A stretch of 64,000 nucleotides of DNA from NCBI RefSeq assembly GCF_900143215.1, contig NZ_FRDM01000003.1, positions 186,001-250,000 on the forward strand, written 5' to 3'. The position numbers and the translations under genes are program-made. The stretch's first letter is position 1. Each line of letters opens with the position of its first letter. Below are positions 4,157 through 43,679 of the stretch, one piece after another. The notes under the pieces were generated by a model, which saw nothing but the letters and a program-made list of their open reading frames with translations, was not told the DNA's origin and made no database searches. This stretch comes from Geodermatophilus obscurus. GTDB taxonomy: Bacteria; Actinomycetota; Actinomycetes; Mycobacteriales; Geodermatophilaceae.

Positions 4157-5880
4157 GGCCTGGGCTCCGTCGCGCTCGGCGAGTCGGGGCCCACGCCTCC
4201 GCCGTCCGGGCCGTGCAGGCCCTCCCGCTCGTCGGGGCGGGGCGGGAACAGCCCCTCCGGCGATCCCTTGCCGTCCCAGTTGAGCAGGTTGACCCGCTGG
4301 TCCCTGTCCCCCGGAGCGGCCAGGGTGTCGGTCGTCTGCCGGCGGGCGAGCATGTGGAAGTTCTCCACCGCGATCGGCGTGACCCCGCCCGAGGTCTCGC
4401 CGAACGGTCCCCAGCCCCCCATCCCCGGGCCGCCCTCGTAGTCCAGTGAGCAGCCGGTGTCGAGCTCCTCCATCTCCGGGCCCTGCTCGGCGTGCGCGGT
4501 CGGGATGACGTAGCGCTCGTCGTACTTGGCGACGGCGAGCAGCCGGTGCAGATCCTGGATGTCACGACCGGTCATCCCGACCGCGGCGGCGATCGACTCG
4601 TCCGCCGGGCGGCCGAGGTTGAGGTCGCGCATGTAGGACCGCATCGCCCCGAGCCGGCGCAGCACGCCGGTGACCCGCTCGGTGTCGCCGGCGGTGAACA
4701 GCTCGGCGAGGTACTCGACCGGGATCCGCAGCGACTCGATGGCCCCGAAGACGTTGCCGACGTCCTCCCCGTCGTGCCCCGTCGCGGTCAGCGCGTCGAC
4801 GACCGGCGACAGCGGCGGGATGTACCAGACCATCGGCATGGTCCGGTACTCCGGGTGCAGCGGCAGGGCGACCTCGTAGCGGTTGATCAGCGCGTGGATC
4901 GGCGAGCGCTGCGCCGCGTCGATCCAGTCCCGCGGGATGCCGGCCTGCTGGGCGGCCCGGATCACCTCCGGGTCGTGCGGGTCGAGGATCAGCGACCGCT
5001 GCGCGTCGTAGAGGTCCTCCTCGTCCGGCGTCGACGCCGCCTCGAGCACCCGGTCGGCGTCGTACAGGACGATCCCGATGTAGCGCAGCCGCCCCACGCA
5101 GGTCTCCGAGCAGACCGTCGGGATGCCGACCTCGACCCGCGGGAAGCAGAAGGTGCACTTCTCCGCCTTGCCGGTGCGGTGGTTGAAGTAGACCTTCTTG
5201 TACGGGCAGCCGGTCACGCACATCCGCCAGCCGCGGCAGCGGTCCTGGTCGACCAGCACGATGCCGTCCTCGGTCCGCTTGTAGATCGCCCCCGACGGGC
5301 AGGACGCCGCGCACGACGGGTTGATGCAGTGCTCGCAGATGCGCGGCAGGTAGAACATGTACGTCTGCTCGAACTGCTGCTTGACCTGGGCCGAGATCTT
5401 CCGCAGCACCGGGTCGGCCTGGGTGAGCTCGGGGGCGCCGCCGAGGTCGTCGTCCCAGTTGGCGCTCCACTCGACCTTCATCGGCTCGTTGCTCAACAGC
5501 GAGCGCGGCCGCGCGACCGGGGTGTGCTCCTGCACCGGCGCGTTGGTCAGCGTCTCGTAGTCGTAGGTCCAGGGCTCGTAGTAGTCGTCGATCGAGGGCT
5601 GGATCGGGTTGGAGAAGATCGTCAGCAGCCGCTTGAGCCGGCTGCCGGTGCGCAGGCTCAGCCTGCCGTTGCGGCCGACCTCCCAGCCGCCCTTCCACCT
5701 GTCCTGGTCCTCGTAGGTGCGTGGGTAGCCCTGCCCGGGCCGGGTCTCGACGTTGTTGAACCAGACGTACTCGACGCCGGCGCGGTTGGTCCACGCCTGC
5801 TTGCACGTCACCGAGCAGGTGTGGCACCCGATGCACTTGTCGAGGTTCATGACCATGCCCATCTGGGCCATGACGCGCAT
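4153..5880 (-). CDS. narH: Respiratory nitrate reductase beta subunit
   Basis: NarH (575 residues) carries the iron-sulfur chain between NarI hemes and NarG. The first cluster set is C16-x2-C19-x2-C22-x3-C26 (CIGCHTCSVTC). A middle set reads CEHCINPSCAASCP, a third CRGWRMCVTGCPYKK, and a fourth CTFCFPRVEVGIPTVCSETC. The tryptophan in CRGWRMC replaces a cysteine, which in the E. coli enzyme gives the [3Fe-4S] cluster. The length is somewhat above the E. coli protein. ATG at 5880 shares one base with the narG stop (TGATG); GTGA joins it to narJ. An alternative in-frame ATG lies three codons further on. Confidence 0.95.
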   Translation of the reverse strand: MRVMAQMGMVMNLDKCIGCHTCSVTCKQAWTNRAGVEYVWFNNVETRPGQGYPRTYEDQDRWKGGWEVGRNGRLSLRTGSRLKRLLTIFSNPIQPSIDDYYEPWTYDYETLTNAPVQEHTPVARPRSLLSNEPMKVEWSANWDDDLGGAPELTQADPVLRKISAQVKQQFEQTYMFYLPRICEHCINPSCAASCPSGAIYKRTEDGIVLVDQDRCRGWRMCVTGCPYKKVYFNHRTGKAEKCTFCFPRVEVGIPTVCSETCVGRLRYIGIVLYDADRVLEAASTPDEEDLYDAQRSLILDPHDPEVIRAAQQAGIPRDWIDAAQRSPIHALINRYEVALPLHPEYRTMPMVWYIPPLSPVVDALTATGHDGEDVGNVFGAIESLRIPVEYLAELFTAGDTERVTGVLRRLGAMRSYMRDLNLGRPADESIAAAVGMTGRDIQDLHRLLAVAKYDERYVIPTAHAEQGPEMEELDTGCSLDYEGGPGMGGWGPFGETSGGVTPIAVENFHMLARRQTTDTLAAPGDRDQRVNLLNWDGKGSPEGLFPPRPDEREGLHGPDGGGVGPDSPSATEPRP

Positions 5881-8800
5881 CAGTACGTCACCTCCTGGTT
5901 GCGGCGGCGGATGACCGTGACCTCGTCGCGCTGGTTGCCGGTGGGGCCCAGGTAGTTGAAGGCGAAGGACAGCTGCGCGTAGCCGCCGATGAGGTGGGTC
6001 GGCTTGAGGAACAGCCGGGTGCCGGAGTTGTGGATCCCGCCGCGCCTGCCGGTGGTCTCCGACCGCGGGACGTCGATCAGCCGGTCCTGGGCGTGGTACA
6101 TGTACACGGTCCCCTCGGGCATCCGCGCCGAGACGATGGCCCGGGCGACGATCACCCCGTTGCGGTTGACCGCCTCGATCCAGTCGTTGTCCCGCACCCC
6201 GACCTTCGCTGCGTCCTGGGTGCTCATCCAGATCGTCGGCCCGCCGCGGGACAGCGAGAGCATGAACAGGTTGTCCTGGTACTCCGAGTGGATCGACCAC
6301 TTGTTGTGCGGGGTCAGGTACCGCACCGCGACGCCGAGGTCGCTGACCTCGCCGATCCGCGGCTCGCCGTAGAGCGCGGTCATGTCAAGCGGCGGGCGGA
6401 ACACCGGCAGGTTCTCGCCGGCCTCGGTCATCCAGTCGTGGTCGAGGAAGAAGTGCATCCGCCCGGTCAGCGTGTGCCAGGGCTTGAGCCGCTCGACGTT
6501 GATGGTGAACGGCGAGTACCGGCGCCCGCCGTGCTCGCTGCCCGACCACTCCGGCGAGGTGATGACCGGCGTCGGCCGCGACTGGGTGTCGGCGAAGGTG
6601 ATGAGCTTGCCCTCGTGCTCGGCGGCGAGGTCGGCCATCCGGGTTCCGGTGCGCTCCTCGGCGACGTGGAAACCCTGGGTGGCCAGCCGGCCGTTCGTCG
6701 TCCCGGACAGGGCCAGGATCGTCTCGCACCAGTGCACGTCGCGGGCGAGCGCCGGCCGCCCCTCCGCGACGCCGTCGCGGACGACGCCGTTGCGGTGCCG
6801 CAGGTACTCCACCTCCTCGTCCGGTTTCGTCGTCACGCCCTTGACCTGCAGGCCCAGCTCCTCGACCAGCGGCCCGAGCGCGGCCCACTTCTGCGCGACC
6901 GCGCCGTAGTCCCGCTCCTGGACGACGAACCTCGGCATCGTGCGGCCCGGCACGGGGTCGCACTCCCCCGCCTTCCAGTCCCGGACGACGCCCCGCGGGT
7001 TGGCCGTCTCGTCCGGGGTGTCGTGCAGCAGCGGCACGGCGACGAGGTCCCTGCGGACGCCCAGGTGGTGCGCGGCCAGCCGGCTGAACTGGCGGGCGAT
7101 GGTGCCGAACGCGTCGAAGTCGGTGCGGGTCTCCCACGGCGGCGCGATCGCCGGGTTGAACGAGTGCACGTACGGGTGCATGTCCGTGGTGTTGAGGTCG
7201 TGCTTCTCGTACCAGGTGGCCGCGGGCAGCGTGATGTCGGCGAAGACCGTGGTGCTGGTCATCCGGAAGTCCAGCGCCAGCAGCAGGTCCAACTTCCCGC
7301 GGGGTGCCTCGTCCCGCCAGACGACGTCCCGGGGCCGCGCCCCGGGCGAGGCCTCGGTCGCCCGCAGGTTGGAGTCGGTGCCCAGCAGGTGCTCGAGGAA
7401 GTACTCGTTGCCCTTCGCCGACGAGCCGAGCAGGTTGGCCCGCCAGACGGTGAGCACCCGCGGCCAGTTCTCGGGGGCGTCCGGGTCCTCGCAGGCGAAC
7501 CGCAGCCGGCCGGCCCTCAGCTCCCCGACCACGTACTCGCCCGGCTCCCTGCCCGCCTCGGCTGCCTGGTCGGCCAGGTCGAGGGGGTTGCGGTCGAAGG
7601 TCGGGTGGCTCGGCATCCACCCCATGCGCGCGGACTGGGCGAGGACGTCGGCGGGGGCCCGGCCGGCGAACCGGCCCTCGCCGAGCGGTGAGGCGAAGGA
7701 GTCGAGGGTGGTGCGGTCGTAACGCCACTGGTCGGTGTGCAGGTACCAGTAGGCGGTCTGGATCATCTGCCGCGGCGGCCGCGCCCAGTCCAGTGCCGAC
7801 GCCAGCGTCATCCAGCCGGTGACCGGCCGGCACTTCTCCTGCCCCACGTAGTGCGCCCAGCCGCCGCCGTTGACCCCCTGGCAGCCGGTCAGCGTGGTGA
7901 GCGTGAGGAAGGCCCGGTAGATCGTGTCGGAGTGGAACCAGTGGTTGGTCCCGGCGCCCATGATGATCATGGAGCGGCCGTTCGACTCCTCGGCGTTCCG
8001 CGCGAACTCCCGTCCGATCCGCGCCGCGGCGGCGGCCGGGACGCCGGTGAACTGCTCCTGCCAGGCCGGGGTGTAGGGCTGCGTCGGGTCGTCCGGGCCG
8101 GTCGGCCACTCCCCCGGCAGCCCGGAGCGGGCCACGCCGAACTGGGCGAGCAGCAGGTCGTGCACCGTCGTCACCAGGTGCTTGCCGATCCGCCGCACCG
8201 GCACCCCGCGCCGCAGCACCGCGCCCTCGCCGCGCGGGGTGTCGAAGCGGGCCAGGTCGACCGGGGCGACCTCGGCGCCCTCGGCGCCCTCGGCGTAGAG
8301 GCTCAGCAGCGGGTCGACGTCCCCCAGGTCGAGGTTCCACCGGCCCTTGCCGGACTCGGTGAACCGGTCGCCCAGCGTGCCGTTCGGCACGTGCGGCCGG
8401 TCGGTGCGGGAGTCGACCAGCACGGTCTTCCACTCCGCGCCCTCGTCGACGTCGCCGAGGTCGGCGGCGGTGAGGAACTTGCCGGGGGCGTACCCGGCTC
8501 CCGGGTCCTCGCCGCGCGGGGTCAGGGTGAGCAGGAACGGCAGGTCGGTGTAGCGCTTGACGTAGTCGACGAAGCGCGGCACCTGCCGGTCGACGAAGAA
8601 CTCCCTGAGGACGACGTGTCCCATCGCCATCGCGAGCGCGCCGTCGGTGCCCGGGTGCGGAGCCAGCCAGTCGTCGGCGAACTTGGTGGCGTCGGAGTAG
8701 TCGGGGCTCATCACGACGACCTTCTGGCCGCGGTAGCGGGCCTCGGTCATCCAGTGCGCGTCGGGCGTGCGGGTGACCGGCACGTTGGAGCCCCACAGGA

Positions 8801-9614
8801 CGAGGTAGGCCGCGTCCCACCAGTCACCGGACTCGGGGACGTCGGTCTGGTCGCCGAAGACCTGCGGGGAGGCGACCGGCAGGTCGGCGTACCAGTCGTA
8901 GAACGACAGCATCGGGGCGCCGATGAGCGACATGAACCGGGCGCCGGCGGCGTGGGACACCATCGACATGGCCGGGATCGGCGAGAAGCCGGCGATCCGG
9001 TCGGGGCCGTGCTCCTTGATGGTGTGCACGTGGGCGGCGGCGATCATCTCGGTCGCCTCGTCCCAGCTCGCCCGGACCAGCCCGCCCCTGCCCCGCTCGG
9101 ACTTGTAGACGCGCGCCCGGACCGGATCGGAGACCACGTCGGCCCAGGCGAGCACGGGGTCCCCGAGGCGCTGCCTGGCCTCCCGGTACATCTGCAGCAG
9201 CGAGCCGCGGACGTACGGGTAGCGGACGCGGGTGGGCGAGTACGTGTACCAGGAGAAGGCCGCGCCCCGGGGGCAGCCGCGGGGCTCGTACTCGGGCCGG
9301 TCCGGCCCGGTGGACGGGTAGTCGGTCTGCTGCGCCTCCCAGGTGATGATCCCGTCCTTGACGTAGACCTTCCACGAGCACGAGCCGGTGCAGTTCACCC
9401 CGTGCGTGGAGCGGACGACCTTGTCGTGCGCCCAGCGGTCCCGGTAGAAGCTGTCGGCGTCCCGGCCGCCGATCTGGTGCAGCGACCGCAGGTCGGCGCT
9501 CACCTCCCCCTTGCGGAAGAAGCGGGAGGTGCGGACCAGCGCCTCGGAGAGCCCGCTGTCGAAGCCGGCTGCGGAGTCGGTCGGGCCGGCCTCGGGACGG
9601 CGGGTGCTGGTCAC
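5880..9614 (-). CDS. narG: Respiratory nitrate reductase alpha subunit (Mo-bisMGD)
   Basis: NarG (1244 residues) reduces nitrate to nitrite on the cytoplasmic side during anaerobic respiration. The FS0 cluster ligands H71, C75, C79 and C114 (STHGVNCTGSCSW and PRGCPRG) sit at a constant offset of 22 from E. coli H49, C53, C57 and C92. The molybdenum-ligating aspartate is D244 in YDWYADLP, matching E. coli D222. WGSNVPVTRTPDAHW is also conserved. GTG at 9614 was chosen because GGGAGGAG precedes it at good spacing and the longer frame upstream is not NarG-like. It is the first gene of narGHJIK and is divergent from the HTH regulator at 9737, with a 122-bp shared promoter region. Confidence 0.96.
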   Translation of the reverse strand: MTSTRRPEAGPTDSAAGFDSGLSEALVRTSRFFRKGEVSADLRSLHQIGGRDADSFYRDRWAHDKVVRSTHGVNCTGSCSWKVYVKDGIITWEAQQTDYPSTGPDRPEYEPRGCPRGAAFSWYTYSPTRVRYPYVRGSLLQMYREARQRLGDPVLAWADVVSDPVRARVYKSERGRGGLVRASWDEATEMIAAAHVHTIKEHGPDRIAGFSPIPAMSMVSHAAGARFMSLIGAPMLSFYDWYADLPVASPQVFGDQTDVPESGDWWDAAYLVLWGSNVPVTRTPDAHWMTEARYRGQKVVVMSPDYSDATKFADDWLAPHPGTDGALAMAMGHVVLREFFVDRQVPRFVDYVKRYTDLPFLLTLTPRGEDPGAGYAPGKFLTAADLGDVDEGAEWKTVLVDSRTDRPHVPNGTLGDRFTESGKGRWNLDLGDVDPLLSLYAEGAEGAEVAPVDLARFDTPRGEGAVLRRGVPVRRIGKHLVTTVHDLLLAQFGVARSGLPGEWPTGPDDPTQPYTPAWQEQFTGVPAAAAARIGREFARNAEESNGRSMIIMGAGTNHWFHSDTIYRAFLTLTTLTGCQGVNGGGWAHYVGQEKCRPVTGWMTLASALDWARPPRQMIQTAYWYLHTDQWRYDRTTLDSFASPLGEGRFAGRAPADVLAQSARMGWMPSHPTFDRNPLDLADQAAEAGREPGEYVVGELRAGRLRFACEDPDAPENWPRVLTVWRANLLGSSAKGNEYFLEHLLGTDSNLRATEASPGARPRDVVWRDEAPRGKLDLLLALDFRMTSTTVFADITLPAATWYEKHDLNTTDMHPYVHSFNPAIAPPWETRTDFDAFGTIARQFSRLAAHHLGVRRDLVAVPLLHDTPDETANPRGVVRDWKAGECDPVPGRTMPRFVVQERDYGAVAQKWAALGPLVEELGLQVKGVTTKPDEEVEYLRHRNGVVRDGVAEGRPALARDVHWCETILALSGTTNGRLATQGFHVAEERTGTRMADLAAEHEGKLITFADTQSRPTPVITSPEWSGSEHGGRRYSPFTINVERLKPWHTLTGRMHFFLDHDWMTEAGENLPVFRPPLDMTALYGEPRIGEVSDLGVAVRYLTPHNKWSIHSEYQDNLFMLSLSRGGPTIWMSTQDAAKVGVRDNDWIEAVNRNGVIVARAIVSARMPEGTVYMYHAQDRLIDVPRSETTGRRGGIHNSGTRLFLKPTHLIGGYAQLSFAFNYLGPTGNQRDEVTVIRRRNQEVTY

Positions 9615-9736
9615 GCTGCTCCTCCCGGGCGGCGGGTGCCGCCAGACGTGGACGGGCGGTCGGCTCCCCGACCCCGACGAGCGAGGTGAGTGGCGGACGA
9701 CGGGATGCCGCCGCGCCGGTCTGTGAGACTCGTGGG

Positions 9737-10447
9737 ATGGCCGTGCCTCCGCAGGGGTCCGCACAGGAGTCCGTGCGGGCCGGTGTCAGCCGGCAGCGGG
9801 TCCTGGAACTGCTGCGCGCGACTCCGGAGGGGCTCGGCGTGCAGGATCTCGCCGACCGGACCGGCCTGCACACCAACACCGTGCGCTTCCACCTCGACCG
9901 CCTGGTCGCCGACGGGCTGGCCCAGCGGCACGTCGAGGAGCGGGCCGAGCCGGGCCGACCCCGGCTGTCCTTCACCGCCGCCCCGCGGCCGGACCCCGCC
10001 CGCGACAGCCGCAACTACCAGTTCCTCGCCGAGATCCTCGCCAGCTACGTCGCCGGGACGGTCGACCGGCCGGCGGCCGCCGCCGTGGAGGCGGGACACA
10101 CGTGGGGCCGCTACCTCACCGAGCGACCGGCGCCCTACCGGCGCGTCCCGGAGGAGGAGGCGGTCACCCGGCTGCTGCGCATCCTCGACGACATCGGCTT
10201 CGCCCCCGAGCTGGCCGCCGAGGACCCCCGGCAGATCCGGATCCCCCACTGTCCCTTCCGCGAGGTGGCCGAGGCCCACCGCGAGGTCGTCTGCGCCATC
10301 CACCTGGGCCTCATGCGCGGTGCGCTGGCCGAGATGGGGGCGCCGGTGACGGCCGATCGGCTGGTCCCCTTCGTCGAGCCGTCGCTGTGCGTGGCCCACC
10401 TGGCGCCGATCGACACGGCGCCGACGCCACCGCCCCCGTCGCGCTGA
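9737..10447 (+). CDS. Winged-helix regulator with C-terminal cysteines (SufR-like)
   Basis: A 236-residue regulator with an N-terminal winged HTH (about residues 17-80; GLGVQDLADRTGLHTNTVRF as recognition region) and a helical C-terminal half. The C-terminal half holds HCPFREVAEAHREVVCAIHL and FVEPSLCVAHL, giving C172, C186 and C218 with histidines beside them. This spacing resembles the iron-sulfur-binding end of SufR-type repressors. It lies back to back with narG, so control of narGHJIK in response to oxygen, NO or iron-sulfur status is a reasonable inference. ATG at 9737 was preferred; a GTG at 9686 would add 17 residues. No strong ribosome site precedes the ATG, so a leaderless mRNA is possible. 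Confidence 0.85.
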   Translation: MAVPPQGSAQESVRAGVSRQRVLELLRATPEGLGVQDLADRTGLHTNTVRFHLDRLVADGLAQRHVEERAEPGRPRLSFTAAPRPDPARDSRNYQFLAEILASYVAGTVDRPAAAAVEAGHTWGRYLTERPAPYRRVPEEEAVTRLLRILDDIGFAPELAAEDPRQIRIPHCPFREVAEAHREVVCAIHLGLMRGALAEMGAPVTADRLVPFVEPSLCVAHLAPIDTAPTPPPPSR

Positions 10448-10460
10448 CACGGGGTCAGGT

Positions 10461-10479
10461 CCCGGTCGCTCGCGACGGG
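10461..10479. terminator. Possible bidirectional hairpin between convergent genes
   Basis: CCCGgTCGC-TC-GCGA-CGGG forms a nearly perfect stem with one bulge, 14 bases after the regulator stop. It lies in the 108-bp gap between two convergent genes. There is no T-run, as is common in high-GC actinobacteria. Confidence 0.35.
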
Positions 10480-10555
10480 TGGGCAGCCGCCGGCTCAGCG
10501 CCGACGCGCCCGCAGTCCGGTGGCTTCGCGGAGCACGGGTCCCGCCGGGCGCCGG

Positions 10556-10885
10556 TCACCGCTTCACCACGGTGAGCAGCACGGTCGCGTCGGCCATCGC
10601 CTCCAGCCGGTGGCGCGCCGGGGGGACGAGCAGCAGGTCTCCGCGACGGCCCTCCCAGGAGTCCTCGCCCGCGACGAGCCGCACGCGGCCGTCGAGGACC
10701 AGCACGGTGGCCTCTCCCGGGTTCTCGTGCTCGGCCAGGACCTGACCGGCGACCAGGACGACCACCGTCTGCCGCAGCGCCTTCTCGTGGCCGCCGTGGA
10801 CGGTGTCGGCAGCGCGTCCGCTCCCGTTGCTGCCGGCCGTCTGCCGCAGCTGCCGAGCCAGCGCCTCGAGGCTGATCTTCTGCAC
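10556..10885 (-). CDS. Small single-domain cupin protein
   Basis: A 109-residue protein with a leading helix (QKISLEALARQLRQ) and one cupin barrel. VVVLVAGQVLAEHENPGEATVLVL is cupin motif 1, with the H-x3-G-E pattern reduced to one histidine, and GDLLLVPPARHRLEAMADATVLLTVV is motif 2 with a histidine. A sensor or small metal-binding role is typical of such stand-alone cupins, but the ligand is unknown. GTG at 10885 has the purine run GGGGGG upstream. A 14-bp inverted repeat about 95 bases upstream may be its operator. It converges on the nar regulator. Confidence 0.78.
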   Translation of the reverse strand: MQKISLEALARQLRQTAGSNGSGRAADTVHGGHEKALRQTVVVLVAGQVLAEHENPGEATVLVLDGRVRLVAGEDSWEGRRGDLLLVPPARHRLEAMADATVLLTVVKR

Positions 10886-10979
10886 GGGCCCCCCTGTCGT
10901 CGAACACGGGAACGACACCCCAGGACCGCCGCCCCGGTGCGGACGACAGAACTCCGGCGGTCCGTTTGTACCAGTACGA

Positions 10980-11777: not shown

Positions 11778-12098
11778 ATGACCACCCTCAGCCCTGCTCC
11801 CACCCCCGCCACCCCGGACTGGGCGCCGTTCCGGGTGCTGCTCGAGGCCCAGCGGGCCGACTGCGTCGGCCAGCGCGAGCTCGCCCTGGCCGAGACGGCC
11901 ACGTCGATGCCGGACCCGGTCGCGGTCAACCGTGCGGCCAGCCTGCTGCGCACGATCGAGGAGATCGACGCGGCGCTGGAGCGCATCGCCGCCGGCACCT
12001 ACGGCACGTGCGTCCACTGCGGCAGCGCCGTCCCCACCGAGCGGCTGGAGTTCCGGCCGTTCGCGGCCGCCTGCGTCTCCTGTCAGCAGACCCGCTGA
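11778..12098 (+). CDS. TraR/DksA-type C4 zinc finger protein
   Basis: A 106-residue protein with an N-terminal coiled-coil-like helical pair (about residues 15-75, including MPDPVAVNRAASLLRTIEEI and DAALERIAAGTYG). A zinc finger of the DksA/TraR type follows: CVHCGSAVPTERLEFRPFAA and then CVSC, that is C-x2-C-x17-C-x2-C. DksA relatives enter the RNA polymerase secondary channel and tune stress and ribosomal promoters. Short actinobacterial versions like this are common and less studied. ATG at 11778 is preceded by AGGAGAACTCC. It stands alone ahead of a divergent-looking metabolic gene. Confidence 0.88.
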   Translation: MTTLSPAPTPATPDWAPFRVLLEAQRADCVGQRELALAETATSMPDPVAVNRAASLLRTIEEIDAALERIAAGTYGTCVHCGSAVPTERLEFRPFAAACVSCQQTR

Positions 12099-12256
12099 GC
12101 GGACCACGCCGCGGCCGCGCGTTCCACCCCGGCCATCCACCTCCCGGGCAGCCACCGGTCCGGCCCGCGCGTCCGACCGGTGCCGGCACGCATCCGGTGC
12201 CGGTCACTGCCCGATCGACCCGTCCCGGCGACCCGAGCGCCGGGGAAGGAGCGGGC

Positions 12257-13537
12257 ATGTCCTCGTCCCAGCAGCACGGTCCGGTGTTCGTGCCCGGCGC
12301 GCCACGGCAGGTCGCCGTGGTCGGCGCCGGCATGGTCGGCCTCTCCTGCGCCTGGTTCCTGCAGGAGGCCGGCGTGCAGGTCACCGTCTACGAGCGCGAC
12401 TCCATCGGCGCCGGCGCCTCCTGGGGCAATGCCGGCTGGCTCACCCCGGCGCTGACCGCGCCACTGCCCGAGCCTGCGGTGCTGCGCTACGGGCTGCGCG
12501 CGGTGCTCGACCCCCGCTCACCGGTGTACCTGCCGCTGCGCGCCGACCGCACGCTGCTGCGCTTCCTCACCGGGTTCGCCGCGCACAGCACCGCCCGGCG
12601 GTGGCGGCGCGGGATGGCCGCCTACGTGCCGTTGAACGAGCGGGCGCTGGAGGCCTTCGACGTGCTCGCCGCCGGCGGGGTGCCCGCGGCGACGCAGCGG
12701 GCGGAGCCGTTCCTGGCCTGCTTCCGCCGGGAGCGCGACGCCCGGGTGCTGCTGGCCGAGCTGGCGCACATCCGCGACACCGGGCAGGAGGTCGGCTTCC
12801 AGCCGGTGACCGGACAGCGGGCCCGCGCGCTGGAGCCGGCGCTGAGCGACCGCGTCGGCGCCGCGGTGCAGATCTCCGGACAGCGGTACCTGCACCCACC
12901 GGAGTACGTGCGGTCCCTGGCCTCCGCGGTGCGGCAACGCGGTGCGGAGGTGGCCGAGGACGTCGGCGTGGCCGACCTGCAGGACACCGGCGGCGGGGTC
13001 ACCGTCACCACCACCACCGGCGAGCGGGAGCGGCACGATGCGGTCGTCGTCGCCACCGGCGCCGAGCTCGGCCGGCTGGCCGGACGGTTCGGCGTGCGGC
13101 AGCCGGTGCAGGCCGGGCGCGGCTACAGCTTCAGCGTGCCGGTGCAGCAGATGCCCCGCGGCCCGCTCTACTTCCCGGCCCAGCGGGTGGCCTGCACGCC
13201 GCTGGGCGACCGGCTGCGCGTGGCCGGGATGATGGAGTTCCGCCGCCCCGGCGACCCGCTGGACCCCCGCCGGATCGCCGCGATCGTCGACGCCGTCCGC
13301 CCGTTCCTCAGCGGAGCCGACCTCGACGACCGGCGCGACGAGTGGGTCGGCTCGCGCCCGTGCACCGCCGACGGGCTCCCCCTGCTCGGCCCCACCGCCT
13401 CCCCGCGGGTCCACGTCGCCGGCGGCCACGGCATGTGGGGCATCGCGCTCGGCCCGCTGACCGGGCAGCTGGTCGCCCAGACCGTGCTCAAGGGCGAGGC
13501 CCCACCGGAACTGGCCCCGTTCGACCCGTTGCGCTGA
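12257..13537 (+). CDS. D-amino-acid dehydrogenase-like FAD oxidoreductase
   Basis: A 426-residue DAO-superfamily protein. The dinucleotide fold VAVVGAGMVGLSCAWFLQEA with E at the end of strand two (VYERD) binds FAD. GASWGNAGWLTP is typical of DadA-type enzymes, and the C-terminal RPCTADGLPLLGPT with VAGGHGMWGIALGPLTG is the family FAD-closing motif. DadA deaminates D-amino acids to 2-oxo acids and passes electrons to the respiratory chain. Without the alanine racemase neighbour typical of dadAX, the exact substrate is open; hydroxyproline or glycine-type amines are alternatives. AAGGAGCGGGC precedes ATG 12257. Confidence 0.85.
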   Translation: MSSSQQHGPVFVPGAPRQVAVVGAGMVGLSCAWFLQEAGVQVTVYERDSIGAGASWGNAGWLTPALTAPLPEPAVLRYGLRAVLDPRSPVYLPLRADRTLLRFLTGFAAHSTARRWRRGMAAYVPLNERALEAFDVLAAGGVPAATQRAEPFLACFRRERDARVLLAELAHIRDTGQEVGFQPVTGQRARALEPALSDRVGAAVQISGQRYLHPPEYVRSLASAVRQRGAEVAEDVGVADLQDTGGGVTVTTTTGERERHDAVVVATGAELGRLAGRFGVRQPVQAGRGYSFSVPVQQMPRGPLYFPAQRVACTPLGDRLRVAGMMEFRRPGDPLDPRRIAAIVDAVRPFLSGADLDDRRDEWVGSRPCTADGLPLLGPTASPRVHVAGGHGMWGIALGPLTGQLVAQTVLKGEAPPELAPFDPLR

Positions 13538-13566
13538 CCTCCTCCCCTCCCCGCTCGGAGCTCCCC

Positions 13567-14031
13567 GTGCTGCACACGCCCGCCTCCCCGGCCGCGCCCG
13601 ACGCCGGTCAGCTGTTGTCGGTCACCGCCGTGCCGGGCACCCGCCCCGGTTCGGTGTTCGTCGAGGTCACCGGCGAGGTCGATGCCCACACCGCTCCGGT
13701 GCTGGACGCCTGCCTGCACTCGCAGACCAGACGGCGAGGCGTCCACGAGGTCGTCGTCGACCTGAGCCAGGTGGCCTTCCTCGGCGCCGCCGGCATCACC
13801 GCGCTGGCCCAGGCACACCGCCGGTGCCGGATGCGCGGCGCCCGGCTGGTGGTCCACACCGGCGGGGAGCGCCGGTTGCTCCGCGCGCTGCAGCTCACCG
13901 GGTTCGCCGACCTCGTCGCGGTCGACCCGACCGAGCTGGAGCCGCAGGTCCGGGGTCCGCGGACGGCCGCGCGACCACGCCCCCGGCCGCGGCAGGCACC
14001 GATCCGGCGCCCCCGCCGGGTGTGCCGCTGA
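13567..14031 (+). CDS. STAS-domain protein lacking the phospho-acceptor serine
   Basis: A 154-residue protein with one STAS domain (about residues 15-120): SVFVEVTGEVDAHTAPVLDA, VVVDLSQVAFLGAAGITALA, RGARLVVHTGGERRLLRALQ and TGFADLV. Anti-sigma-factor antagonists carry D-S-S-G where this protein has G73-A74-A75-G76, so the serine normally phosphorylated by an RsbW-type kinase is missing. It may be a constitutively active antagonist or a sensor scaffold. The C-terminus is an arginine- and proline-rich tail. GTG at 13567 follows the dadA-like gene by 29 bases, so co-transcription is likely. Confidence 0.8.
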   Translation: MLHTPASPAAPDAGQLLSVTAVPGTRPGSVFVEVTGEVDAHTAPVLDACLHSQTRRRGVHEVVVDLSQVAFLGAAGITALAQAHRRCRMRGARLVVHTGGERRLLRALQLTGFADLVAVDPTELEPQVRGPRTAARPRPRPRQAPIRRPRRVCR

Positions 14032-20352: not shown

Positions 20353-20721
20353 TCACGCCGTCCGCGGCGCCCGCCGGCACGACCCCGACGACGGGTGAAC
20401 CCCGCCGTCGAGGGGGACGTCCCGGGTCGCCGTCGGTGCGGACGGCCCGGCGATCCCGTCCAGCAGCGACCAGTAGCGCCACAGCAGCCACCGGGGTGCG
20501 ACGGCGACGGCGACGGCCAGGCCGGCGAGGGGGGCGCCGCAGACGACCAGCAGGACGGCGAGACAGCCGCCGGCGACGACCGTGGCGAGAAGGCTCACCG
20601 GCGCCGCGGAGGGTGGCCGCCGGTCCCTCGTGCCGAGGACCGGGCGAGCGGGCTCCTCGACCTCCTCCGCACAGCGACGCCGGATCTCGTCCCAGGCGCG
20701 TCGTTCGTCGGAACTGAGCAC
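20353..20721 (-). CDS. Small membrane protein, DUF3040-like (paralog 1)
   Basis: A 122-residue protein with a charged N-terminal helix (VLSSDERRAWDEIRRRCAEE), then two hydrophobic segments around residues 50-88 (LLATVVAGGCLAVLLVV, PLAGLAVAVAVAPRWLL) and a polar tail. The N-terminal pattern resembles DUF3040 proteins; that assignment is tentative. It is a close paralog of the gene at 35150-35518 (same length, similar along its whole DNA and promoter). GTG at 20721 is preceded by GCAGGAGGTGGACG. A 20-bp duplication just upstream adds distance to its TTGCC-box at 20826. Function unknown. Confidence 0.75.
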   Translation of the reverse strand: MLSSDERRAWDEIRRRCAEEVEEPARPVLGTRDRRPPSAAPVSLLATVVAGGCLAVLLVVCGAPLAGLAVAVAVAPRWLLWRYWSLLDGIAGPSAPTATRDVPLDGGVHPSSGSCRRAPRTA

Positions 20722-20842: not shown

Positions 20843-21035
20843 CCGCGGCCGGCGGCAGGCCGGTCGTCGTCCTCATCGACGCGACGACGCCACCGACCCG
20901 GGGGATCCGCGGGCGTGCCGCTCGGAGGGGGCTGCCGGGTGGACGCCGTCCGGTGCGGGCGCGGCCGGACCCGCGGCGCCGCGCCTGCCGGGGAGCGGGA
21001 CGGCCGAACCGTGGGCGCGACCGGCGGGCAGGGGT

Positions 21036-21305
21036 CGACGGGCAGTGGCCGCGCCGGCCACTCGAGGAGCCGGGCGCCGAGCACGGCCGCGTGCAGCGGC
21101 AACCGCTGGTCGGGCCAGGGAACGCTGTACCCGGTCAGCTGGCAGACCCGGGCCGGCCGGCAGGTCACGGTGCGGACGGAGACGTGCAGGCGCCGAGCGC
21201 GGCCTCGGTCGCGGCGGACGCCGCGACCGTCGCCGGCCGGACGTCCCCCGTGCCCGGCCCGCCGGAGCTCCCATGGACCTCGGTTGCCGGTCGGACGTCG
21301 TCCCT
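21036..21305 (-). pseudogene. Truncated relic of a PucR-family regulator
   Basis: On the minus strand, bases 21168-21036 encode RPARVCQLTGYSVPWPDQR followed by LPLHAAVLGARLLEWPARPL. This matches the C-terminal HTH of the intact PucR-type protein at 40424-41653 (LARVAQLTGYSVSRPDQRFS). The next 60 bases also align at DNA level but are frameshifted, and a GGGAGGGA site resembling the intact gene's ribosome-binding site lies near 21305. About 950 bases of the middle are missing. The relic keeps the same position relative to a TTGCC-box (21336) and a divergent small membrane-protein gene (21438) as the intact gene does at 41.7 kb. Confidence 0.75.
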
Positions 21306-21335: not shown

Positions 21336-21352
21336 TTGCCGACGGTCGGCAA
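21336..21352 (+). promoter_or_regulatory. TTGCC-box palindrome before paralog 2
   Basis: TTGCCGACGGTCGGCAA is a perfect 7-bp inverted repeat with a 3-bp centre. CTGACCG lies at +17 to +23 and GGCATGGTG at +56 to +64; the GTG start of the small membrane protein is at +86. It separates that gene from the pucR relic. Confidence 0.8.
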
Positions 21353-21437: not shown

Positions 21438-21812
21438 GTGCTCAGCAGGGACGAACAGCGGATCTGGGACGACATCGAGCGGTTCTACGCCGCCGAGGCC
21501 GAGGAGCCCGTCCTGCCCGTCCCGCACCCGGCGCTCCGGCACCGGCGCGACGGCCGCGGAGCGGGCGACCTGCCGGTCGCGGTGGTGGCGGGCGCGTGGA
21601 GCGCGATCCTGCTGATCCTGTTCGGCGTCCTGGTCGCCGGCTTCGCGGTCGGTGCGGCCACGGCGCTGGGCTGGTGGCTGTGGCGCCACTGGTCGCTGCT
21701 GCGCGGCGGACGGGACGTCGCCGCGGCGGGGCCGACGGGCGAGGCGGCGGTTCGTGTGCGTGCGGACGAGCCGTGGCACCGGCGGTTGCGGCGTGCGTCG
21801 GACACCGACTGA
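21438..21812 (+). CDS. Small membrane protein, DUF3040-like (paralog 2)
   Basis: A 124-residue protein of the same family as 20353-20721, 35150-35518, 41774-42145 and 43216-43593. The N-terminus VLSRDEQRIWDDIERFYAAE with EAEEP is the family signature. Hydrophobic residues 52-88 (VAVVAGAWSAILLILFGVLV, GFAVGAATALGWWLWRHW) give two membrane helices, and the tail is basic (WHRRLRR). GTG at 21438 has AGGAGG at ideal spacing. Its promoter closely matches that at 41671-41774, so the two are probably co-regulated. Function unknown. Confidence 0.78.
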   Translation: MLSRDEQRIWDDIERFYAAEAEEPVLPVPHPALRHRRDGRGAGDLPVAVVAGAWSAILLILFGVLVAGFAVGAATALGWWLWRHWSLLRGGRDVAAAGPTGEAAVRVRADEPWHRRLRRASDTD

Positions 21813-35149: not shown

Positions 35150-35518
35150 TCACGCCGTCCGCGGGCTGCGTCGGTGCCGGGGCTCCGACGACGGGTGGTG
35201 CTCACCGTCGCGGGGGACGTCCCGGGTCGCCGTCCGTGCGGAGAGCGCGAGACCGCCGTCCAGCAGCGGCCAGTAGCGCCACAGCAGCCACTGGGGGACG
35301 GTGGCGACGGCGATGGCCAGTCCGGCGACCGGAGCTCCGAGGACGACCAGCAGAACGGCGAGGCTGCCGCCGGCGACGACCGCGGCGAGGGCGGCCGGCG
35401 TCGGGGAGCGTGGCCGCCGGACCTCCAGGTCGATGACCGGGAGAGCGGGCTCCTCGGCCTCCCTCGCATAACGACGCCGGATCTCGTCCCAGGCTCGCTG
35501 TTCGTCGTGGCTGAGCAT
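35150..35518 (-). CDS. Small membrane protein, DUF3040-like (paralog 3)
   Basis: A 122-residue paralog of 20353-20721, same length and closely similar along its whole sequence. The N-terminus is MLSHDEQRAWDEIRRRYARE with AEEPALPV; two hydrophobic segments (AALAAVVAGGSLAVLLVVLG and PVAGLAIAVATVPQWLLWRY) follow, then a polar tail. ATG at 35518 replaces GTG in the paralog; CAGCAGGAGGTGGACG precedes it. The TTGCC-box promoter is 85 bases upstream. The similarity of coding and promoter DNA shows duplication of the whole unit. Function unknown. Confidence 0.77.
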   Translation of the reverse strand: MLSHDEQRAWDEIRRRYAREAEEPALPVIDLEVRRPRSPTPAALAAVVAGGSLAVLLVVLGAPVAGLAIAVATVPQWLLWRYWPLLDGGLALSARTATRDVPRDGEHHPSSEPRHRRSPRTA

Positions 35519-37639: not shown

Positions 37640-38776
37640 TCAGGACCTCACGATCGCGACTGCTGGGGATGACCCGGGCATCTCGAGATCGGGGACGACG
37701 AACACCGCACCGTCGCGGCTGAGGGTGGTGACGACGGCGGACTCCAGTCGCTCCTCCACCGTCGGCGGGGAACCGAGCCGGAGAACCGGTCGACCACTGC
37801 TCGGGGATGCCCAGGTGCAGGCTGCCACGTTGACCAGCAGCGTCTCCACCCGCCCCTCGATGGCGGCTCGGAGGCTCTCCTGCAGGCCGTCCACGGTGCG
37901 GCCGGTGCCCCGGAGGTCGTGGTAGCGCTCGATCGCGGTGGACGCGTCGCGGCGCATCTCCGACTCGACCAGTGCCCACGCGCGCCGGTGCAGTTCTGCC
38001 CGGCTCCGCTGCTCCGGGTTGCCGTCGATGCCTTCGTCGAGGAGACGGGGGTGGGTGTTGACGGCGCGGTACAGAGCCTGCAGGTGCCGCACGCCGGCCA
38101 GGACCAGGGGTGCCTGCTCGCCGAGCACCTCTCGTAGGGCTCGGTCGATGCCGCGGAAGTGCTGCAGCGCCCGGGTCTTCCGCTCGTCGGAGTCGCGTCC
38201 GACACCGTGGAAGACGGCGCGGGTTCCTCGGCCACCCCGGTCGGCGAGGAAGGCGTGCACCTGTGGTGCACGGGGTCGCGGCATGGTGGTCCACGCCGCC
38301 AACTCCAGCCCCTCCACGTCCACCCGCGCCAGCGCCAGCGCCGTGCCCGTGAACAACCGGATGTCGTCCTGGGTCAGCGTCAGCAGGAAGAACTGTCCCT
38401 GCACGTTGATCGTGGGCAGCAAGGGCGCGATGGTGAACCGGTCGCCGACCACGGCGAGCTCGCGCGGGCGCAGGGGGACGTGGTAGGCGCGTACGTGATC
38501 CGTGTCGGCGAACACCGCCAGCCCCAGGTGGTTGTCGCTCAACGGTCGCGCCTGCTCCAGCGCCTGGCGGACCCGGCCCACCAGGTCGGTCACCTCGACG
38601 CTCGACAGGCCGTCGGAGAGCAGGGCGTGCCCGGCCCCGGCGAGCAGGTTCTTCGCGCGGACCCGGGTCTTCATCGATCGCGGCGAACCGGGTGACAGCG
38701 GGAGGAAGAGGGACAACCGGGGACCCCCTGTCTCCCGCTTCAGCCGCACCAGATCGCCCGACAGCACCTCGTTCAC
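37640..38776 (-). CDS. Bacterial archaeo-eukaryotic release factor (baeRF) family protein
   Basis: A 378-residue protein of the baeRF3/7-like type. The N-terminal part has VLSGDLVRLKRETGGPRLSL and FLPLSPGSPRSM. The middle contains FHGVGRDSDERKTRALQHFR followed by GIDRALREVLGEQAPLVLAG, where the eRF1-like domain places its helix and sheet. The C-terminus is DGAVFVVPDLEMPG. These proteins are predicted ribosome-associated factors that act under stress; no direct activity is proven. The start is uncertain: GTG 38776 has GGAGG four bases upstream, while ATG 38800 lacks a ribosome site. It follows the 64-residue RsbW-like gene and is probably in its operon. Confidence 0.8.
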   Translation of the reverse strand: MNEVLSGDLVRLKRETGGPRLSLFLPLSPGSPRSMKTRVRAKNLLAGAGHALLSDGLSSVEVTDLVGRVRQALEQARPLSDNHLGLAVFADTDHVRAYHVPLRPRELAVVGDRFTIAPLLPTINVQGQFFLLTLTQDDIRLFTGTALALARVDVEGLELAAWTTMPRPRAPQVHAFLADRGGRGTRAVFHGVGRDSDERKTRALQHFRGIDRALREVLGEQAPLVLAGVRHLQALYRAVNTHPRLLDEGIDGNPEQRSRAELHRRAWALVESEMRRDASTAIERYHDLRGTGRTVDGLQESLRAAIEGRVETLLVNVAACTWASPSSGRPVLRLGSPPTVEERLESAVVTTLSRDGAVFVVPDLEMPGSSPAVAIVRS

Positions 38777-39127: not shown

Positions 39128-39325
39128 GATGCAGCCCTCGCTCACCCGGGTGGTATCTCGCTGAGGTGGCCGGACACCGAGCGATACCGGCGGTCTGCTG
39201 TTCGCGTTTCCGACCTCCGGCAAGCAACCTCCGGGCAGCTCGTCCGGTGGACGACGTCGAGGACCCCCTCGTCCCCACGCACACTCCGGGTGGAACGCAG
39301 CGGAGTCCGCGGAAGGGGAGGCGAG

Positions 39326-40423: not shown

Positions 40424-41653
40424 TCAGGGTTCGGAGGGCAGCGGCGTGGCGGGCCAGTCGAGCAGCCGGGCGCCCAGCACGGCCGCGTGCAGCGAGAACC
40501 GCTGGTCGGGCCGGGAGACGCTGTACCCGGTGAGCTGAGCGACCCGGGCCAGGCGGTAGGTGACCGTGCGGACCGAGACGTGCAGACGGCGGGCGGCCTC
40601 GGTCGCGACCTCGCCGGCGTTGAAGTACTCCCGCAGGGTCTCCAGCAGCACCTCCGCGCCGCCGCGCACCTGGTCCAGGGGGCTGAGCACGTCGCGGACC
40701 AGGTCGAGGATGGCCGCCTGGTCGCGGCCCAGCACCCGGTAGACGAGCAGGTCGCGGGCGTGGACGACGTCGGTGTCGAGGCCGAGCCGGTCGGCGAACA
40801 CGAGCGCCTCGCGGGCCTCCTCGTAGGAGCGGGGGATGCCGTAGGCCCCGGGGAAGGCGCGACCGGCCGCCACCCGCCAGCTGCCGGCGACCCGCAGTCG
40901 GCGCAGGTCCTCGTGGAGCACGATGCCCACGTCATCACCCGGTGTCCGGGCGAACGCCGGCGCCGATCGACCGGGGACGATGACGACCACGCGGCCGTCC
41001 TTGGTCGCGACGAGCACCTCCCGGTCGCCGAACCGCTCGACCACGGCCCGTTCCAGGGCGGGAGCCGCACGCTCGGCCGCGCCGTTGGGATCGCGCGAGT
41101 CCACGAGGACGACGTGGTGGTGCTTGCCGAGGTCGAGACCGAACGGCTCGGCGCGCTCCACCAGCCAGGAGACGTCGGCGTCACCGCGCAGCAGGTCGTC
41201 GACGAACTCGGCTCGCTGCGCCTCCTCGTGGCGGATCATCTCCCGCCGCTCGGCCTGGTGGCCGTCGACCAGCACGCCGACGGCGTCGTCGAGCACCCGC
41301 AGCACCGCCTCGGCGGAGCGGCGGACCTTCTCCGGATCGGACGAGCGGACGACCACGGGCAGCTGCCGCCACAGCCGCCACGCGGCGGACAGGTAGAGCT
41401 CCACCGCACGGCGGGCGCCGACTCCCTGCGCGGCCGCGCGCCGCCCGAGCTCGCGGACGGCGTCGAGCTCGAACGAGTCGGGACGGCGGCCGTTGATCGC
41501 GGCGTCGGCCAGCAGCGGCAGATACCCGCCGAGCAGCTCCACCGGCGCCTTGCAGGCGGCGGCCGCCGAGGCCCCGACCGGGGCCAGCCAGTCATCGTCG
41601 GCCGACGGCGCCGCCGGCCGGCCGGAACGCGGGTCAGGCTGACTGCGGGTCAT
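40424..41653 (-). CDS. PucR/CdaR-family transcriptional regulator
   Basis: A 409-residue regulator. The N-terminal region (about 20-150) resembles the RsbRD-like helical sensor (LLADAAINGRRPDSFELDAV). A central CdaR GGDEF-like domain (about 165-290) follows, and the C-terminal PucR HTH is AGEVATEAARRLHVSVRTVT with YRLARVAQLTGYSV. Family members answer to small metabolites and usually regulate adjacent genes. GGAGGGATC precedes ATG 41653, and the TTGCC-box at 41671 begins 18 bases upstream, in the position of an auto-regulatory operator. A frameshifted, internally deleted relic lies at 21036-21305. It is my leading candidate for the protein that binds the TTGCC-boxes. Confidence 0.88.
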   Translation of the reverse strand: MTRSQPDPRSGRPAAPSADDDWLAPVGASAAAACKAPVELLGGYLPLLADAAINGRRPDSFELDAVRELGRRAAAQGVGARRAVELYLSAAWRLWRQLPVVVRSSDPEKVRRSAEAVLRVLDDAVGVLVDGHQAERREMIRHEEAQRAEFVDDLLRGDADVSWLVERAEPFGLDLGKHHHVVLVDSRDPNGAAERAAPALERAVVERFGDREVLVATKDGRVVVIVPGRSAPAFARTPGDDVGIVLHEDLRRLRVAGSWRVAAGRAFPGAYGIPRSYEEAREALVFADRLGLDTDVVHARDLLVYRVLGRDQAAILDLVRDVLSPLDQVRGGAEVLLETLREYFNAGEVATEAARRLHVSVRTVTYRLARVAQLTGYSVSRPDQRFSLHAAVLGARLLDWPATPLPSEP

Positions 41654-41670
41654 GATCCCTCCTCACGACA

Positions 41671-41687
41671 TTGCCGACGATCGGCAA
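41671..41687 (+). promoter_or_regulatory. TTGCC-box palindrome between pucR-like gene and paralog 4
   Basis: TTGCCGACGATCGGCAA is a perfect 7-bp inverted repeat with a 3-bp centre, or an 8-1-8 palindrome counting the inner C-G pair loosely. CTGACCG lies at +17 to +23, GGCATGGTG at +56 to +64, and the GTG of the small membrane protein at +87. It is also 18 bases ahead of the divergent pucR-like ATG. Confidence 0.85.
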
Positions 41688-41773
41688 GAACAGTCTGCCT
41701 CATCTGACCGACGGGACCCGTGGTGTCCAGCCCCCGCCCGACGGCATGGTGAAGGCAGTCGAGGAGGTGCGCT

Positions 41774-42145
41774 GTGTTCAGCAGACAGGAGCTGTCGGTC
41801 CGGGACGACGTCCAGCGGTCCTGGGCCGCGGAGGTCGAGGAGCCGCCCCCGGCCGCCCTCCCCGCGCCGAGCCGCAGGACACGGGTGTCGCGCGACCCGG
41901 CGGACCTGCCGGTCGCGGTGGTCACCGCCGCCTGGATCACGATCATGCTGCTCCTCTTCGGGGCGCCGGTCGCCGGCCTGGTCCTCGCCGGCGCCACCGC
42001 ACTCGGCTGGGCACTGTGGCACCACCGGCCGCAGCCGGGCAGGCAGGACGCTCCGAAGCCCCCGCCAGACGAGAACGGGACCGCGCGGGGGCCGGCGGAC
42101 GAGCGCCGGCACCGGCGCCTCCGGCGCACAGGGGACGCCGGCTGA
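41774..42145 (+). CDS. Small membrane protein, DUF3040-like (paralog 4)
   Basis: A 123-residue member of the family. The N-terminus MFSRQELSVRDDVQRSWAAE with VEEPPP keeps the charged helix followed by E-E-P. Hydrophobic segments are LPVAVVTAAWITIMLLLFGA and PVAGLVLAGATALGWALWHH, and the tail is basic with HRRLRR, as in paralog 2. GTG at 41774 follows GAGGAGGTGCGCT. It is divergent from the pucR-like gene and 65 bases ahead of a CBS gene, which probably shares its transcript. Function unknown. Confidence 0.77.
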   Translation: MFSRQELSVRDDVQRSWAAEVEEPPPAALPAPSRRTRVSRDPADLPVAVVTAAWITIMLLLFGAPVAGLVLAGATALGWALWHHRPQPGRQDAPKPPPDENGTARGPADERRHRRLRRTGDAG

Positions 42146-42210: not shown

Positions 42211-42729
42211 ATGGCGAGCCACCCGGCTCGGACCGGCCGGCCGGTCCCCGACGACGTCGAGGCCGGTGTCCCGGGGCGGCCCGGGGAGGGCGCGCGATCG
42301 GCGTCCGCCGCAGCCGTGGGCGCGGTGTACGGCGTGCCGACGGCAGGCGACGTGATGCACCGCCGTCCCCCGGTCGCCGACCAGGACATCTCCTTGTGGG
42401 ACGCCTGGGGGCGGCTGCGCGGCGCCGACTGCCGACACCTGGTGGTCGTCGACTCCCGGCTGCGCCCGGTGGGTGTGCTCGAGGAGCGGGACCTCGCCCT
42501 CCAGTGGCCGCCCGGCCCGTTCGAAGCGCACCGCCTCCCCCTGCGCCAGGTGGTGCGCGGACGGGCCCGGCCACAGGCGCGCAGCAGCGACGACATGGCC
42601 ACGGTCGCCCGGGCCATGCTGGCCGGCCGCACCGACGCCGTCCCGGTTGTCGACGACGACGGCCGGCTGCTCGGCCTGGTAACCGCGCGCCACTGCACCG
42701 AACTGGTGGCCCGCCACACGATCACCTAG
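42211..42729 (+). CDS. CBS-domain pair protein (paralog)
   Basis: A 172-residue protein with CBS motif 1 (about 44-98: AGDVMHRRPPVADQDISLWD, HLVVVDSRLRPVGVLEERDL) and motif 2 (about 110-165: ATVARAMLAGRTDAVPVVDD, DGRLLGLVTARH). It shares the W-P-P-G-P linker and overall pattern with the protein at 39326-39886, so the two arose by duplication. AGGAGGACGGAGCG precedes ATG 42211. Placement behind the TTGCC-box gene at 41774 suggests control by the same promoter. Binding of an adenine nucleotide is expected from the family. Confidence 0.86.
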   Translation: MASHPARTGRPVPDDVEAGVPGRPGEGARSASAAAVGAVYGVPTAGDVMHRRPPVADQDISLWDAWGRLRGADCRHLVVVDSRLRPVGVLEERDLALQWPPGPFEAHRLPLRQVVRGRARPQARSSDDMATVARAMLAGRTDAVPVVDDDGRLLGLVTARHCTELVARHTIT

Positions 42730-43215: not shown

Positions 43216-43593
43216 TCAGCGATCCGCCGACCCGCGGCGGCGCTGCCGCGGCCGCGACCCCGACGCCGGTCGGCGTGCCGCCTGCAGACCCCGGTTGATC
43301 TCCGCCAGCACCGCCCAGGCTGGAGTCGTGTGCGCCCGGCCCCGCCGAGGCACGTAACGCCACAGGGCCCAGCCGAGGGCGGTGGCGACACCGACCGACA
43401 GGCCCGCGACGAGCGCTCCGAGGAGGATCAGCAGGAACGCGCCCACCACGCCGGCGACCACCAGGACGGGCGGATCGGCCGGGTCCGGGGGTGCCGGCCG
43501 GGTGACCGGCACCGGCCGCGGGGACTCCACGGCGTCCTCGGCCCAGAGCCGTTCGGTGTCGTTCCGCACTCGTTGCTCGGAATCGCTGTGCAT
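43216..43593 (-). CDS. Small membrane protein, DUF3040-like (paralog 5)
   Basis: A 125-residue, more diverged member of the family. The N-terminus MHSDSEQRVRNDTERLWAED with AVESPRPVPV keeps the charged helix. The hydrophobic core is PPVLVVAGVVGAFLLILLGA and LVAGLSVGVATALGWALWRY, closest to paralogs 2 and 4, and the tail is strongly basic. ATG at 43593 follows GGAGGTGGTC. A weaker TTGCC-box lies 87 bases upstream, the same distance as for paralogs 2-4. Function unknown. Confidence 0.74.
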   Translation of the reverse strand: MHSDSEQRVRNDTERLWAEDAVESPRPVPVTRPAPPDPADPPVLVVAGVVGAFLLILLGALVAGLSVGVATALGWALWRYVPRRGRAHTTPAWAVLAEINRGLQAARRPASGSRPRQRRRGSADR

Positions 43594-43679
43594 GACCACC
43601 TCCGTTGCCGATACCGAGCATGTACGCCCGCGGATGCACCCCGCTTCGGCCTCCTTCGGCCGAATTGGGCACGCTGACC

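Follow-up and report, generated by a model that had tools for sequence, protein, structure and literature searches.

A PucR-type regulator of Geodermatophilus obscurus and a 17-bp palindrome as its putative operator

Few PucR-type regulators have been studied, according to the report on GabR (PMC7652997). In Geodermatophilus obscurus, a gene of this type (hereafter, pucR) lies head to head with a gene for a small membrane protein, and the interval between them contains a perfect palindromic box. This arrangement raises the question of whether the PucR-type protein reads the box and, if so, how far its control extends. We analysed a stretch of 64,000 nucleotides around the locus (hereafter, the window; contig NZ_FRDM01000003.1, positions 186,001 to 250,000) and compared it with related loci in and beyond the Geodermatophilaceae. 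The likeliest reading of these sequence comparisons, to which we assign a probability of about 0.83, is that the PucR-type protein recognizes a 17-bp palindrome as a putative operator.

The original prediction placed the box 18 bases ahead of the pucR start and 87 bases ahead of the divergent gene, and the coordinates of the three elements (41653, 41671-41687 and 41774) agree with it (Table 1). The box TTGCCGACGATCGGCAA stands directly ahead of GAGGAGGG, the likely ribosome-binding site of pucR. The five related membrane-protein genes that had been announced are also present in the window, each with a box ahead of it (at 83-86 bp, and at 104 bp in one case). On the other hand, pucR had been described as the only regulator directly beside a perfect box; a DksA/TraR-type gene, whose product is possibly a transcription factor itself, follows the box at 11252 at a distance of about 510 bp. 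Two further genes may belong to the picture. The CBS gene downstream of gene A is possibly co-transcribed with it, and the baeRF gene is a candidate target through the box at 39207. In the window, the baeRF gene is preceded by a tiny ORF with the tail FPASDPPANW, relatives of which occur near a box in four other loci (L083, L084, L096 and L104). Near the box cluster, nitrate-reductase-type genes (delta subunit, large molybdopterin subunit) occupy positions 3476-9764, and no box with at most one mismatch was found around them.

Table 1. Features of the window; positions count from its first nucleotide.
Feature	Position	Strand	Details
pucR-type regulator gene	40424..41653	-	409 aa; Pfam GGDEF_2, HTH_30; AlphaFold2 models; structure matches
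Perfect palindromic box TTGCCGACGATCGGCAA	41671..41687		Between pucR and divergent small gene A
Small membrane-protein gene A	41774..42145	+	Same family as B-E; box gap 86-87 bp
CBS-domain protein gene	42211..42729	+	3' of gene A; Pfam CBS 5.5e-18
Second-pucR remnant, residues 357-409 only	21031..21189	-	tblastn 79% identity
Box TTGCCGACGGTCGGCAA of second trio	21336..21352		
Small membrane-protein gene B	21438..21812	+	Box gap 85 bp
Box with 1 mismatch TTTCCGAGGGTCGGCAA	20826..20842		
Small membrane-protein gene C	20353..20721	-	Box gap 104 bp
Box TTGCCGGGAGTCGGCAA	35603..35619		
Small membrane-protein gene D	35150..35518	-	Box gap 84 bp
Box TTGCCGGCCACAGGCAA	43680..43696		1 mismatch to 12-base core
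Small membrane-protein gene E	43216..43596	-	Box gap 83 bp
Box TTGCCGGTCGTCGGCAA	11252..11268		About 510 bp ahead of DksA-type gene
DksA/TraR-type zinc-finger gene	11778..12098	+	Pfam zf-dskA_traR 1.8e-8
FAD-dependent oxidoreductase gene, DAO fold	12257..13537	+	Pfam DAO 1e-61
Stand-alone STAS-domain protein gene	13567..14031	+	Pfam STAS 4.3e-15
Weak box TTTCCGACCTCCGGCAA	39207..39223		1 mismatch to core; ahead of small ORF and baeRF gene
baeRF-family gene	37640..38776	-	Pfam baeRF_family3 4.2e-36

The sequence TTGCC alone is not informative, as it occurs in the window at the level expected by chance (62 found versus 56.7 expected). We found that the motif is longer, TTGCCG-N5-CGGCAA, with a 17-bp consensus of yTGCCGRYnnYCGGCAA derived from 52 pucR-upstream sites in and beyond the Geodermatophilaceae. 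The spacing is strict: a spacer of 5 was found in 24 family and 28 distant loci, as compared with at most 3 and 0 for any other spacer between 0 and 12. Sites with at most one mismatch show no genome-wide excess (33 versus 46 for the motif read backwards, used as control), which leaves clustering as the non-random feature and implies that the regulon, if any, is local. In this sense, the window holds 8 of these 33 sites (binomial P 5e-9) and four of the five perfect boxes of the 5.24 Mb genome, of which it represents 1.2%. The only perfect box outside the window (L112, around 9968; G000:C48:21967) is found between two genes that we take, from reading their sequences, to be CBS-like and a short baeRF-like ORF. 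In the claim that PucR is the master of the boxes, the tie between PucR and the box is supported by the recurrence of the box beside pucR across genera and beside a paralogue, but "master" overstates a local set of about 8 sites.

The regulator is predicted to combine a globin-like N-terminal domain, a GGDEF-like domain and a C-terminal HTH. The last two are recognized by Pfam (PF17853, GGDEF_2, residues 157-284, 2.5e-20; HTH_30, PF13556, residues 336-392, 2.6e-18, the C-terminal HTH of the PucR/CdaR family), which gave no other domain at E <=0.001, and thus no match to PF07905, the classical PucR domain and named as the PucR family in PMC7652997. AlphaFold2 models reached a pLDDT of 86.6 for the full-length protein and 92.5 for the N domain alone. 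The full model matches BAD_0249 and the C-terminal fragment of MabR (9f80; Foldseek E 1.1e-11), the closest solved fragment of this part of the protein, to which the C-terminal half is also related in sequence (phmmer 9.2e-10), though at a low identity (28% over the aligned C-terminal part). When the N-domain model was aligned with VIA-align, nearly all rows were globins or phycobiliproteins, led by pXO2-61 (Z 11.0; rmsd 2.7, 116 aligned) and followed by pXO1-118 (10.7), the stressosome protein 3zta (10.2) and RsbR (2bnl; 9.1), although Z scores below 13 are indecisive for helical domains. Foldseek gave no globin match at E <=0.001, whether searched with the full-length or the N-domain model. 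The fully or almost fully conserved columns of the N domain include no histidine, which is consistent with a nonheme sensor.

Altogether, the protein resembles regulators of the MabR type, with which it appears to share a three-part architecture on the basis of Pfam and of the structure models. In the report on MabR (PMC11617747), the geometry of the dimer is said to suit a palindrome, its recognition helices being set one helical turn apart, the distance between neighbouring major grooves. The half-site centres of our box are 11 bp apart. Unlike the regulator described here, MabR controls mycolic-acid genes. Inverted-repeat operators are also documented in PMC7652997 for the PucR-family regulators GabR (Corynebacterium glutamicum), PutR and AdeR (Bacillus subtilis), with lengths of 21, 17 and 24 bp, respectively. 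According to the same source, the PucR-type regulators studied act as activators, PucR itself can repress as well as activate, and GabR is divergent from the target operon that it activates. However, GabR is a local catabolic regulator devoid of a GGDEF-like domain.

To what extent box and regulator travel together can be seen in 112 Geodermatophilaceae genomes, 29 of which carry an orthologue (identity >=70%). A perfect box is present in 26 of these 29 genomes and in 17 of the 83 without the orthologue (Fisher 4e-11). In total, the 29 genomes contain 49 perfect boxes as compared with 14 occurrences of the control pattern (control totals were summed by hand), and the remaining 83 contain 20 boxes versus 37. 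This drop below the control level in genomes lacking the orthologue argues that the PucR subfamily reads the box. At the level of single loci, a box with at most one mismatch lies within -400..+60 of pucR in 24 of the 31 family loci, two of which (L109 and L110) have a misplaced upstream interval because their matches begin inside the gene; when 89 palindromes were generated by permutation without change in composition, none was found at more than 2 loci. No box was found in the orthologue locus fetched from G012. These loci are kin by descent, and their counts therefore overstate independence.

The association is also found in other families. From the best 80 of 117 GTDB relatives, fetched as named loci, we defined a distant set of 59 (L170-L228; 54-62% identity), leaving aside L149-L169, which comprise 20 loci that duplicate the Geodermatophilaceae set and a Pseudonocardiales MAG (L167) whose one-mismatch box at -188 is counted in neither set. 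Among these best 80 of 117, 28 of the 59 distant loci have a box within -400..+60 of pucR (permuted palindromes, 2 at most) and 31 have none beside it; 44 contain a box anywhere in the locus. Adjoining boxes were found in Kribbella (8/8), Pseudonocardia (7/9), Humibacillus (2/2), Dactylosporangium (2/3) and in single loci of Nonomuraea, Phytohabitans, Plantactinospora and others; they were missing in 15 of 17 Micromonospora loci, in both loci of Lentzea and in single loci of four other groups. The operator may have changed in Micromonospora. Many Micromonospora loci (L185-L208) have other neighbours in common, in the form of a conserved small ORF just 3' of pucR, and no boxes. In the distant loci among the best 80 of 117, box density is highest, at 0.73 per kb, in the kilobase that precedes the pucR start; the first kilobase of the gene contains no box, the second, which covers the gene end and beyond, has 0.41 per kb, and values elsewhere are 0.02-0.15. 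Over 63 distant loci (819 kb), we counted 125 boxes versus 6, 4 and 2 for three control patterns. In addition, a draw of 394 genomes yielded four from other families with a pucR match at E <=1e-90: G197 and G346 each have a single perfect box in the genome, within 5 kb of pucR, G146 has its box on another contig, and G123 has none. Of 28 genomes with no such match, 8 contain a perfect box.

The box is found beside pucR in several genera with differing neighbouring genes, which further argues that this subfamily reads it. In the distant loci, a box in -300..+30 was found for 26 of 63 pucR genes as compared with 37 of the 655 genes that belong to none of the families tallied. The corresponding figures are 6/8 for GreA-type, 6/11 for CBS, 7/20 for universal-stress and 3/4 for DAO genes, 6/7 for the unnamed family h14, 3/16 for MreB-like and only 3/38 for DksA-type genes, and 0/10 and 0/8 for two further families; most of these names are our own assignments from reading the sequences. 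Within the Geodermatophilaceae, relatives of the DksA-type gene of the window stand first in a row of genes, with pucR often as the last. The recurring order, in one direction, is box, DksA/TraR-type gene, DAO-type oxidoreductase, STAS gene, box and pucR (L101 and L095), the STAS gene being absent from the row in L082; in the window, the row (box 11252; genes 11778-14031) stands apart from pucR. A box within 700 bp upstream of the DksA-type gene was detected for 23 of the 33 copies that orthologue genomes carry, one of which (G044) has just 84 bp of upstream sequence, and for 0 of 30 copies from the others. This gene is not a clean control, as those 30 copies are less closely related, and copies of comparable divergence also lack the box in genomes that have the orthologue.

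A PucR paralogue with 43-49% identity provides separate support for PucR proteins reading the palindrome, as this second clade adjoins the same sequence. The copy of this genome (G000:C41:72897-74087) is 44% identical. The paralogue gave 22 matches, 21 of which were fetched as loci (G010, a partial match, was left out). None of the 21 loci has a box upstream of the gene. Instead, 11 of 21 loci contain the palindrome in the 150 bp that follow the stop codon when one mismatch is allowed (best permuted sequence, 1), and 17 of 21 do so when two are allowed (best permuted, 3). In loci with a clear box, it starts some 6-20 bp past the stop codon. The following gene, in the same direction, is conserved family f4 in five loci (L122-L126) and STAS-like in L111, L127, L130 and L132, where the gap was about 70 bp for L111 and L130. 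This assignment as STAS-like is weak, the L111 protein (10464-10892) being under both Pfam cut-offs (E 6e-4 and 2e-3). In four loci (L113 of G000:C41, L128, L131 and L136), the paralogue is preceded by a shared-family gene and a response-regulator-like gene, presumably of the NarL type, and followed by a gene of the STAS-like family.

These data bear on the alternative that the box belongs to a different regulator with its gene elsewhere, which would control pucR together with the neighbouring genes, pucR being just one of its targets. Such a regulator would account for the many pucR orthologues that have no box, and also for sites that persist in the absence of the orthologue, a finding that the original prediction had regarded as contrary to it and that we made in part. 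Eight orthologue-less genomes have a match to the small membrane-protein gene, and three were examined for an upstream box: G087, a genome in one contig whose best PucR match has 34% identity, carries a perfect box 83 bp ahead of the small gene; G039 carries CTGCCGACCGTCGGCAG, a palindrome with two mismatches, 86 bp ahead; and G104 has no convincing box there. The other five (G007, G013, G014, G035 and G096; match E 3.6e-5 to 7.7e-4) have no perfect box in the genome. Nevertheless, an unrelated owner of the box fits poorly with its excess beside pucR amid differing neighbours, its scarcity in orthologue-less family genomes and its recurrence beside the paralogue, and we consider it improbable. 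The recognition helix is nearly invariant, in loci with and without boxes alike, so that no protein-DNA covariation could be shown.

A much less probable alternative is that the palindrome acts as an RNA hairpin, either a terminator or a leader. It is indeed a near-perfect inverted repeat, and the copies that closely follow the paralogue stop codon would suit a terminator. However, a terminator between two divergent starts would serve no purpose, and a hairpin is at odds with the strict spacer of 5. Moreover, at positions 7 and 11 of the sites at 23 small genes, unpaired A-C is as frequent as A-T (8 and 8), which indicates a purine/pyrimidine preference and not pairing. These small genes were taken from the fetched loci of orthologue genomes, leaving out tblastn matches that start past query residue 8 (the gene D row is duplicated). 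All 23 have a box with at most one mismatch, separated from the start by 80-89 bp in 18 cases, 104-105 bp in three, and 125 and 158 bp in one each. Among the small membrane-protein genes of the window, B, C and D score 23.3, 20.4 and 21.9 bits with DUF3040, all under the Pfam cut-off of 24.7 (gene B just so, with E 7.8e-5), and no match was obtained for gene E at E <=1 or for gene A at E <=0.001.

As anticipated, the trio recurs at 21.0-21.8 kb with a decayed regulator, of which 53 residues are left beside an intact box and small gene. By blastn, the two trios share the pucR 3' end (85% over 193 bp) and a second block with the box and the small gene (72% over 393 bp), which starts exactly at the box. 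These blocks and the remnant indicate that the 21-kb trio is a duplicate in which most of the regulator was deleted and the box and small gene were retained. A parallel decay is seen in G092 (L117, contig C5), where residues 11-111 of a pucR are left next to a small gene and a box with one mismatch. That the boxes are inert leftovers of this cassette duplication, as the duplicate trios and paralogous small-gene promoters might suggest, is scarcely credible given that conservation across 25 aligned upstream regions reaches 95% at the 12 bases of the core as compared with 47% for the 60 columns upstream and 66% for the 50 downstream, and that the box is retained both beside decayed regulators and beside pucR in families with unrelated neighbours.

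The same 25 regions contain conserved stretches 3' of the box (TGACCGG, CCCTGGTG and GGGCAnGGT) that we interpret as putative promoter elements. If so, the box would be located some 75-80 bp before the transcription start, a usual location for an activator. Returning to the PucR-type protein as the reader of the box, we propose that it would bind yTGCCGRYnnYCGGCAA as a dimer and that a single box would serve two divergent genes, pucR and small gene A. The position of the box just before the likely ribosome-binding site suggests that pucR limits its own expression, and its position 80-89 bp before the small gene, upstream of the promoter-like stretch, suggests activation of the latter. Diverged copies of the box within 33 kb would then constitute a small stress-like regulon, comprising the five related small membrane proteins, the DksA-type/oxidoreductase/STAS operon and perhaps the baeRF operon. 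Since the 21-kb trio lost its regulator and kept its box and small gene, the intact PucR encoded at 41 kb probably acts there in trans.

A broader reading, possible though doubtful in our view, is that yTGCCGRYnnYCGGCAA represents an old actinobacterial operator code, used by at least two clades of PucR proteins with an RsbR-like globin sensor and an HTH to control a stress circuit. Its targets would be DksA-/GreA-type RNA-polymerase modulators, universal stress, CBS and DUF3040-like membrane proteins. Under this reading, a sensor domain of the stressosome type would act directly on DNA, with stand-alone STAS-like proteins often encoded alongside. The N-domain model aligns with stressosome proteins of the nonheme globin type (RsbR, 2bnl; 3zta), and a STAS gene is often found near pucR. 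Unlike in stressosomes, the globin-like domain of this regulator is fused to an HTH and the STAS domain is encoded by a separate gene. A stressosome-like pairing of the RsbR-like N domain with the STAS protein encoded near the orthologue (window 13567-14031) or the STAS-like one near the paralogue (L111:10464-10892) is possible.

In the literature searched, mostly titles and abstracts, we found no link between this palindrome and any PucR regulator, nor the predicted operator and local regulon described here. For the MabR-like clade, our results predict a 17-bp operator, outline a candidate regulon and show conservation across families, so that binding, signal and target control become testable in harmless soil bacteria. 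They also link the DUF3040-like membrane proteins and the DksA-type operon to a named regulator.
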